Assembly: GCA_028693155.1 (NCBI GenBank)
Contig: JAQUVY010000003.1
Coordinates: 6,195 to 53,016 of the forward strand
From: Eubacteriales bacterium
GTDB lineage: Bacteria; Bacillota; Clostridia; Christensenellales; UMGS416
DNA length: 46,822 bases
Direction: 5' to 3'
Part shown: piece by piece, positions 400 through 27,000 of the stretch
How the letters are laid out: each line of letters begins with the position of its first letter
Numbering within the stretch: the stretch's first letter is position 1
The notes under the pieces: model-generated
Database searches by the model: none
What the model saw: only the letters and a program-made list of their open reading frames with translations
Told to the model about the DNA's origin: nothing
Made by a program: the position numbers and the translations under genes

Positions 400-1488
400 A
401 CATGGATGGGCTTCACGGAAAGGGCTGCGAGGGAGGGATCCTCTTGCAGGGGTTCTCCTTGTGACATTAACTATCCTTTGGAGGACTCGCCTCCGGCGGG
501 GGATAAACCCTTGTGCGGAAGCAAGCCAAGTGCTGCAAGCGCGTCCGCTATTTGGGCATTCCTGCGGAATACCCTATCGCTTCCACGCGAGCCGTGTTTC
601 GGCGTAGCCGAAACACTCGGAAGAGGGGACGTTGTTTTATTACCGCTCCCGTGATTGTTGCCAAGGCAACAACACTGCGCTGGGCTTCCACGTGTTTTAG
701 CTGCCAGTGCCGCTGGGACGGCACTGGTTTGATGCGTCCCCTTGTTCCCCTTAACGATCCCCAGCACCCCTACCGTCTGGGGGCACCCCAGACCCCGGGA
801 GCACTTCGGCCTTTGGCCGAAGTGCGTGGGTAGCTAAAAGCAACTGCTGACGTTGAAGAGCGAGCAAGCGACAATAGGGCGACAGCCCTATGACAGCGCC
901 GCGAGCCAGCAGGAAGCGTTTCGCCGCAGGCGAAACGCGAGGGTAGCTAAGAATGACTGCTGACGCTGATGCCGAAAGGAACACCGCAGGTGTTCCGAAA
1001 GGCAACGGCGAAACGCGAGGGTAGCTAAGAATGACTGCTGACGCTGATGCCGAAAGGAACACCGCAGGTGTTCCGAAAGGCAACGGCGAAACGCGAGGGT
1101 AGCTAAGAATGACTGCTAACGCTGATGCCGAAAGGAACACCGCAGGTGTTCCGAGAGGCAACGGCGAAACGCGAGGGCAGCTAAGAATGACTGCTAACGC
1201 TGATGCCGAAAGGAACACCGCAGGTGTTCCGAAAGACGGCAAGGCGCGAGGGCAACCAAGAATAACTGCGGACGCAAAAAACGGCTTCACCGCATGTTGC
1301 CTGCCCTCGGGAACGATGCTCCGGGCGTCTTTACAGCTTCTCCACGATGAAAGGGTCAAGGGATGAAGTCCCTTGTGGGGGTTCTTACTACTCCTTTTTC
1401 AACGCCGCTCTCATATTGCCGCTGTATGGCAATATTGCGCCTAGGTTGAGCGTGTTTCAACCGCCAGTGCCGCTGGAGCGGCACGGGT
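400..1488 (+). repeat. Mosaic intergenic repeat locus R1 (modules A, 78-bp array, C)
   Basis: Module A (about 404-830) matches 10110-10503 and the reverse complement of 26447-26800; tandem 78-bp units; module C (about 1290-1488) matches 2970-3170. Confidence 0.9.
931..1255 (+). repeat. 78-bp tandem repeat array, about 4 units
   Basis: gggtagctaa / gggcagctaa recur at 941, 1019, 1097, 1175 (exact 78-bp period), then a diverged 75-bp step; each unit contains GGAACACC-gca-GGTGTTCC. Confidence 0.95.
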
Positions 1489-10079: not shown

Positions 10080-10795
10080 TTGTTGCCGGCAGGGCGCTGG
10101 TCAAGGGGCAACTGCTCCTTGCAGGGGCTTTCTCTCGGTATGAACTATCCTGAGGAGGACTCGCCTCCGGCGGGGGCTAAATCCTTGTGCGGAAACAAGC
10201 CAAGTGCTGCAAGCGCGTTCGCTATTTGGGCATTCCTGCGGAATGCCCTATCGCTTCCGCGCGAGCCGTGTTTCGGCACAGCCGAAGCACTAGGATTGGG
10301 GGACGTTGTTGTATCACCGCTCCCGTGATTGTTGCCAAGGCAACAACACTGCGCTGGGCTTCCACGTGTTTTGGCAGCCAGTGCCGCTGGGGCGGCACTG
10401 GTTTGATGCGTCCCCCAAATCCCCCTAGCGACCCCCATTCCCCCTCCCATCTGGGGGTACCCCAGACCCCGGGAGCGTTTCGCCTGCGGCGAAACGCTCC
10501 CATTGCCCGCTCTCGGGAACGACGCCTTGGCCGTCCGCGCAGCCTCTCCCCGATGAAAGGGTCAAGGGATGCAATCCCTTGTGGAGGTTCTTGCTATCTC
10601 TTTTTTGCACCGCTCTTATATTGCCGCTTCACGGCAATACTGCGCTTAGTTTCAGCGTGTTTCAGCCGCCAGTGCCGCTTTAGCGGCACTGGTTAGGGAT
10701 GAAATCCCTTGCAGGTCTCTTGCTTTTTCGTTTATTCGCCGCTCCCGTGGTTTGAGCGCGTTTCAGTTGCCAGTGCCGCTAAAGCGGCACGGGTT
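10080..10795 (+). repeat. Mosaic intergenic repeat locus R3 (module A directly joined to C plus extra palindromes, no 78-bp array)
   Basis: About 380 bp match to R1 module A, about 190 bp match to module C, two extra CAGTGCCGC..GCGGCAC palindromes. Confidence 0.9.
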
Positions 10796-26030: not shown

Positions 26031-27000
26031 GGGCGAGTCCTCCTCAGGGCAATTGGTACCGAAAAGAACTTCCGCAAGGGATTGCATCCCTACCCAGGGC
26101 CGCTCCAGCGGCAATCACGGGAGCGGCGCAGGAAGAAGAATGCAAAGGCTCCCCAAGGGATGGTATCCCTTGACCTTTTCATCGTGGAGGAGCTGCTTTG
26201 ACGATCGGGGTATCGTTCCCGAGGGCAGGCGGGCTGCGGCGTACTCGTTCTTCAGCATCAGCGTCAGAAAAAACTCTTGGTTGCCCTCGCGCCTTGCCGC
26301 CGCCTCTCGGAATACCTACGGTGTTCCTGCCGGCATCAGTGTCAGAAAAAACTCTTGGTTGCCCTTGCGCCTTGCCGACGCCTTTCGGAACACCTGCGGT
26401 GTTCCTTTCGGCATCAGTGTCAACAGGAACTCTTGACTGCCTTCGCGTTTCGCCGTAGGCGAAACGCTCCCGGGGTGTCCCCAGACGGGAGGGGGAATGG
26501 GGGTCGCCAGGGGGATTTGGGGGACGCGTCAAACCAGTGCCGCCTCAGCGGCACTGGCAGTTGAAATGCCTAGAAGCCCAGCGCAGTGTTGCTGCCTTGG
26601 CAACAATCACGGGAGCGGTGATACAACAACGTCCCCCAATCCTAGTGTTTCGCCTGCGCCGAAACACGGCTCGCGCGGAAGCGGTTGGGCATTCCACAGG
26701 AATGCCCAAATAGCGGACGCGCTTGCAGCACTTGGTTTGCTTCCGCACAAGGGTTTGCCCCCGCCGGAGGCGAACATCCCTCCGGGCAGTTGATGCCAAG
26801 GGAAAACCCCGCAAGGGATGGTATCCCTTGACCCTTTCATCGTGGAGGAGCTGCGTGGGCGGCTAACGCATCACTCCCGAGGGCAGGCAGCGTGCGGCGA
26901 ACTTGTCGCTTTCTCACAAGCCCAATGGCTAAGGATAACCGCTGAACTTTTTATGTACCTGTGAAGGGGTTCAAGGGGCGCCTGCCCCTTGGGAAACTTA
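26031..27000 (-). repeat. Mosaic intergenic repeat locus R4, minus orientation (D-C-A-78bp array-C-partial A)
   Basis: Reverse complement matches R1, R2 and R3 modules in the same order. Confidence 0.9.
26250..26440 (-). repeat. 78-bp tandem repeat array, about 2.5 units, inverted relative to 931-1255
   Basis: catcag(c/t)gtca recurs at 26256, 26334, 26412 (78-bp period); hairpins GGAATACC-tac-GGTGTTCC and GGAACACC-tgc-GGTGTTCC. Confidence 0.9.

Follow-up and report, generated by a model that had tools for sequence, protein, structure and literature searches.

Matching changes in the two arms of a nucleic acid stem pose a long-standing question, i.e. whether they accumulate stepwise under selection or arise in one copying event. 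In yeast, template switching at short inverted repeats homogenises the arms and inverts the spacer, only where the arms are longer than 9 bp; the examples include ttc/gaa flips in CC-nnn-GG hairpins (PMC8604942). A study of rRNA predicted that paired change combined with loop inversion would give the strongest support for such copying, and this clearest sign proved very rare, being found in only a handful of cases (6; PMC8794818). Hairpins of a related physical form are known from phage N4, in which a promoter hairpin with a G-N-A loop closed by C-G and containing a sheared G:A pair extrudes at physiological supercoiling (PMC4496689).

The DNA analysed here (the window, 46,822 nucleotides) comes from an uncultured bacterium and is one contig, C67, among the 175 of a 2.45-Mb draft genome. 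This is a single metagenome-type assembly, in which the repeat copies are paralogs and offer a snapshot without dated events. Positions 466-830 on the plus strand (module A, copy R1) belong to a family of mosaic intergenic repeats dispersed over the genome, as judged from own-genome matches, the predicted fold and an alignment of nine copies. Local matches to module A (E <= 0.001) occur at 109 places in the genome, and the motif AGGGYAGCYAARARYNNYTGCTGACG of the conserved linker that follows the module-end hairpin (GTGGGTAGCTAAAAGCAACTGCTGACG, 826-852, plus strand) occurs at 105 places with up to three mismatches, a reversed-pattern control giving 0. The linkers at a given locus all have the same orientation. 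The family consists of extragenic palindromes in high copy. Neisserial NIME/dRS3 and similar mosaics, to which it is likened by description only, are also intergenic and built of recurring palindromic and non-palindromic segments; replacement of arms with orientation flips is, to our knowledge, no known feature of NIME/dRS3.

The family appears to be narrowly distributed. At two mismatches the linker motif was absent from 7 of 7 other genomes of the same taxonomic family; module A was not found in 60 relatives, except for a 34-nt trace in one of them, and had no match in phage and plasmid collections searched in distant mode. The second carrier is contig JAQUZL010000014.1 of an Oscillospiraceae metagenome assembly, which holds two near-full modules at 85-90% identity, and three of whose proteins showed 42%, 27% or no match to the genome of the window. 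Since the family is confined to this one contig within its bin, the contig may be misbinned, and repeats at 85-90% identity amid proteins at 27-42% identity hint at either horizontal spread or misbinning.

Within the window, perfect hairpins with 3-nt loops number 18 with arms of at least 8 and 7 with arms of at least 10, where five order-2 Markov simulations gave about 2 and 0. Copy R1 is a mosaic of nested stems with a variable hairpin at its end; copy R3 (10140-10501, plus strand) is 90% identical to it over 300 nt, and copy R4 occupies 26445-26802 of the minus strand. Just before R1, at 333-366, lies a terminator-like hairpin, AAAGCCCCTCGC-GCAG-GCGAGGGGCTTT with a run of T after it, whose stem resembles the arm type AGCCCCTCGCC discussed below. 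A preliminary description had read the three copies as chains of perfect hairpins in which stems are kept while loops vary freely. The hairpins do lie where it had placed them, and its observation is partly confirmed, being largely real but over-generalised. In hairpin b the stem GGGCATTCC had been taken as perfect; R1 itself (GGGCATTCC-TGC-GGAATACCC, 554-574, plus strand) has one mismatch, R3 has GGGCATTCC-TGC-GGAATGCCC (10228-10248, plus strand), and among 13 copies 8 stems are perfect, 5 carry a one-sided mismatch and none a double change. This hairpin is accordingly excluded as proof of compensation, its stem being nearly fixed without compensatory change. The reported TGC versus ACA difference between its loops came from reading R4 (26685-26709, minus strand) on the opposite strand: in module orientation the R4 loop is TGT (ACA on plus), one transition away from TGC.

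Similar corrections apply to other stems. Hairpin c is GTGTTTCGGC-GTA-GCCGAAACAC in R1 (594-616, plus strand), and the perfection claimed for its stem across copies does not hold, as R3 (10268-10290, plus strand, loop ACA) has GCCGAAGCAC with one T.G mismatch and R4 (26645-26667, minus strand, loop GCA) has GGCGAAACAC with one G.G mismatch. Hairpin e (GTCTGGGG-GCA-CCCCAGAC, 775-793, plus strand) keeps one arm sequence and has mostly ACA loops in other copies. The CTGGGG stem, described as perfect in all three copies, reads CTGGGG-ACA-CCCCGG in R4; over 43 scanned copies, in which perfection holds by construction because the scan required CTGGGG and CCCCAG arms, its loops are ACA 35, ATA 3, TAT 3, GCA 1 and TCA 1. 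The module-end hairpin bears out coordinated change of both arms, as does, on inspection, the ATTGCCGC/TTGTTGC hairpin; the GGGCATTCC hairpin does not. The nine-module alignment shows replacement of two hairpins, the module-end one and TTGCCAAGGCAA/CCGCTGTGCGGCAA, within a conserved body.

At the module end the arms indeed change together. The R1 hairpin (801-825, plus strand) is a perfect GCACTTCGGCC-TTT-GGCCGAAGTGC of arm type T2; that of R3 (10471-10501, plus strand) is a perfect 14-bp stem consisting of T3 plus 4 bp (GGGA/TCCC), after which the linker is missing; and that of R4 (26445-26467, minus strand) is a perfect T3 stem whose loop reads TAC in module orientation and GTA on the plus strand. 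A second hairpin of module-end type (916-938, plus strand; arm type T3, GCGTTTCGCC, loop GCA) precedes the same linker. The pattern holds genome-wide: in the fetched stretches of the genome, to which all hairpin counts refer, 73 module-end hairpins precede the linker, 66 with perfect arms and 70 with a 3-nt loop. About 8 arm types occupy shared upstream and downstream flanks, the perfect ones being GCGTTTCGCC (21 copies), GCACTTCGGCC (13), GCGCCTTGCC (11), GCACTTTCGCCC (5), AGCCCCTCGCC (5), GCGCCTCGCC (3), GCCCCTCGCC (2) and singletons, and arm length (10, 11 or 12 bp) varies on both arms together. When arm type was placed on a tree of the flanks, 34 changes were counted among 66 copies, versus 38.9 for shuffled assignments (range 32-44). 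Module-end hairpins thus evolve far faster than their flanks, with arm type nearly independent of the flank tree.

In 41 ungapped copies of the module-end hairpin (10 pairs), 99.8% of cells pair and 5 of the 10 pairs show two-sided change; the score was reached by 0 of 500 shuffles and was lost on sliding the arms by 1-3 columns. Double-changed cells number 54, wobble cells 2 and unpaired cells 1, although these cells are not separate events, since the copies are paralogs. Such covariation would be expected if the hairpins were conserved as RNA, either as a structured transcript or as an mRNA-stabilising element, with compensatory mutations fixed one side at a time. Module A also folds better as RNA than its shuffles (z = -5.9, with nested stems), and several copies start with the hairpin directly after the stop codon of a co-directional gene. 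However, the 2 wobble cells stand against 54 double changes, and the latter include G-C to C-G flips, which cannot pass through a wobble and count in favour of DNA copying. Over all hairpins, mismatches of the G.T kind (about 13) are not in clear excess over A.C (9), and the loops are triloops rather than RNA tetraloops. According to a rough ORF scan, the genes on either side of a locus are tandem in 14 cases, divergent in 6 and convergent in 4; an Rfam search of the window gave no match, and a tRNA scan found none. Pair covariation is thus present, whereas wobble tolerance and strand-specific loops are not, and conservation as RNA is quite unlikely.

The loops carry much of the remaining argument. 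Free loop drift, as first proposed, does not describe them, for their first and last bases are constrained and nearly all are purine-N-A on one strand. A survey of 196 kb of fetched sequence for perfect hairpins with arms of at least 9 and a 3-nt loop yielded 111, many related by descent, with a C-G closing pair in 110 and a purine-N-A loop on one strand in 104. The classes are GCA 39, AAA 24, GAA 18, GTA 11, ACA 7, ATA 4 and AGA 1, so that 7 of the 8 possible purine-N-A loops are present, with other kinds once or twice each. A triloop of this kind with C-G closure is extra-stable in DNA, A-N-A loops being similar in this respect to G-N-A loops. The few 3-nt hairpins of the relatives lack the C-G and purine-N-A bias. 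C-G closure of all hairpin families was considered and is ruled out by hairpin e (G-C) and by CAAGGGAT (T-A). The strand carrying the purine-N-A loop divides 33:34, so that neither strand is preferred. The loop, strand and mismatch features each agree with DNA and sit uneasily with a transcript.

Among 15 close pairs of copies that share their arms and differ at no more than 7 of 60 flanking bases, the loops are identical in 6, exact reverse complements in 6 (about 3 independent contrasts) and otherwise different in 3. The inverted pairs include, with the same stem and near-identical 60-nt flanks, GAA at C30:3414 versus TTC at C63:23116, GCA at C22:9294 versus TGC at C22:8919, and TTT at C35:12747 versus AAA at C151:6226; palindrome assembly error in the 175-contig draft could mimic some of these flips. 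Arm type and loop class are linked (mutual information 1.01 versus 0.41 shuffled, 0 of 5000 as high), GCGTTTCGCC and GCACTTTCGCCC stems having mainly GCA or GTA loops and the remaining stems AAA or GAA. This linkage, together with the inverted loops, implies that stem and loop move together and turn over, nearly uncoupled from the flanks.

The R1 locus continues into 78-bp tandem units (929-1235, plus strand), each composed of a 3' arm, the linker and a GGAACACC-GCA-GGTGTTCC hairpin, so that the 3' arm of the module-end hairpin is repeated without its 5' partner; R4 has two such units with GGAACACC-type hairpins (26255-26410, minus strand). The hairpin at C72 has a unique arm type, GGCGCGGCGC, that recurs in each of the three orphan arms there, which indicates that the arrays grow locally. 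In some units the GGAACACC hairpin gives way to a longer insert whose arms are GCACGACTCATGAC...GTCATGAGTCGTGC (C153:24060-24160, C165:12440-12560, C129 and C97). Elsewhere the GGAACACC hairpin is mostly constant, with a usual left block of GACA, GAAA or GGCA, and a few copies depart from this: TTTC stands opposite GAAA at C2:879, and TCTC opposite GAGA at X110:17296 in the second carrier, the 4-nt left block in both being the complement of the hairpin's own right arm. At C2:1454 the block matches its own-arm template at 3 of 4 bases; cases of templated blocks are few overall.

Template switching in DNA together with exchange of hairpins between copies is the probable explanation of module-end variation. 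The module-end hairpin would act as a 23-27 bp palindromic cassette that undergoes rewriting at the DNA level. A strand would become single at a replication fork, or in a cruciform extruded under supercoiling, and its arms would fold on the stable C-(purine-N-A)-G triloop; a polymerase that left its template for the opposite arm, or for the sister strand, could then copy one arm onto the other, and the same switch could invert the loop (template switching, or quasi-palindrome correction). Whole hairpins would in addition be replaced by those of other copies, leaving few arm types over many flanks. Formation of the DNA hairpin in the cell and template switching as the agent of rewriting are both inferred from this pattern. 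Three marks of template switching were found, i.e. paired arm change, in-place loop inversion and a block templated by the hairpin's own other arm. Of the two agents proposed in the preliminary description, selection or copying acting on the folded form, it is copying that stands, with DNA as the folded form: it agrees with two-sided changes without wobble intermediates, strand-symmetric loop inversion and templated 4-nt blocks, while pair types, strand symmetry and gene context lend selection on RNA no support.

Several observations sit less easily with fold-back copying. Hairpin b retains one-sided mismatches that have not been corrected, hairpin e has a single arm sequence, the GGAACACC hairpin is mostly fixed, and the recurrence of identical arm types is not given by simple fold-back switching. 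Since a given arm type turns up again on many flanks, hairpins must in addition be exchanged between copies, which apparently spreads the types. Gene conversion or recombination among copies could in principle do this alone, moving ready-made hairpins as blocks without any fold-back copying, in keeping with the few arm types over many flanks and with loop classes that travel with the arm type. It would, however, leave unexplained both the blocks complementary to their own arm and the origin of new perfect arm types, and in-place loop inversion would need pairing in opposite orientation; as the sole process it is very unlikely.

The constrained loops and strict 3-nt length could also reflect selection for a hairpin function. 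In one form of this, the hairpin would be recognised by a transposase or recombinase acting on single-stranded DNA, in the manner of REP/REPIN with RAYT or of IS200/IS605; the shape would be kept because the enzyme needs it, and the arms would be free to vary as far as it tolerates. The module-end hairpin is the outer edge of many copies, adjoining unique DNA; the loops and closing pair are constrained, the family occurs in a contig of another bacterium, and a single Y1 transposase, at 163 aa the size of a RAYT, is encoded in the genome. REP families keep their sequence, whereas module-end arms get replaced, and the repeats that flank the Y1 gene are not module A hairpins but others (CTCAATCGTCGCTCACATGT), which makes such a site a rather improbable account. 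The RAYT-like gene itself (C139:5278-5559) has a different repeat, ATGGCGCTCAATCGTCGCTCACATGT, on both sides, and to judge from the sequence this repeat is likely a REP family of its own. As mobiliser of module A the Y1 transposase was rejected, being a single gene with other repeats beside it. Somewhat less doubtful, yet still unlikely, is a flippable single-stranded cassette swapped between sites in either orientation by an enzyme that recognises shape (perfect stem, 3-nt purine-N-A loop and C-G closure) rather than sequence; if this were true, such swapping would maintain the family at its many sites and might have carried it between bacteria. Template switching with exchange makes no claim of a dedicated enzyme, and the constrained loop would be compatible with one.

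If this is correct, paralogous repeats in bacteria can show strong covariation without there being a functional RNA. Some 70 copies of one hairpin, differing in arm type and in loop orientation while their flanks are similar, make the copying model directly testable with reads or strains.

Among known systems, REP/BIME/REPIN elements with RAYT (PMC3116915) share with the module A family dispersed, high-copy intergenic palindromes, arrays, lineage restriction and a Y1 transposase gene in the genome. They differ in that here no RAYT stands beside the family and the arm sequence is not conserved, and in place of the REP doublet there are long mosaic units of hundreds of bases. The early promoter hairpins of phage N4 (C-GNA-G triloops; PMC4496689) have the same loop ends and C-G closure; the resemblance is physical only and implies no polymerase promoter in module A. 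The described cases of template switching (PMC8604942; PMC8794818) share with the module-end hairpins arm homogenisation, paired change of several bases, exact inversion of a short loop and arms of about 10 bp. Those were isolated events between yeast strains or on rRNA branches, whereas here about 70 paralogous copies in one genome display several arm types and both loop orientations; i.e. the mechanism is already known, and it is its density in this genome that is unusual.
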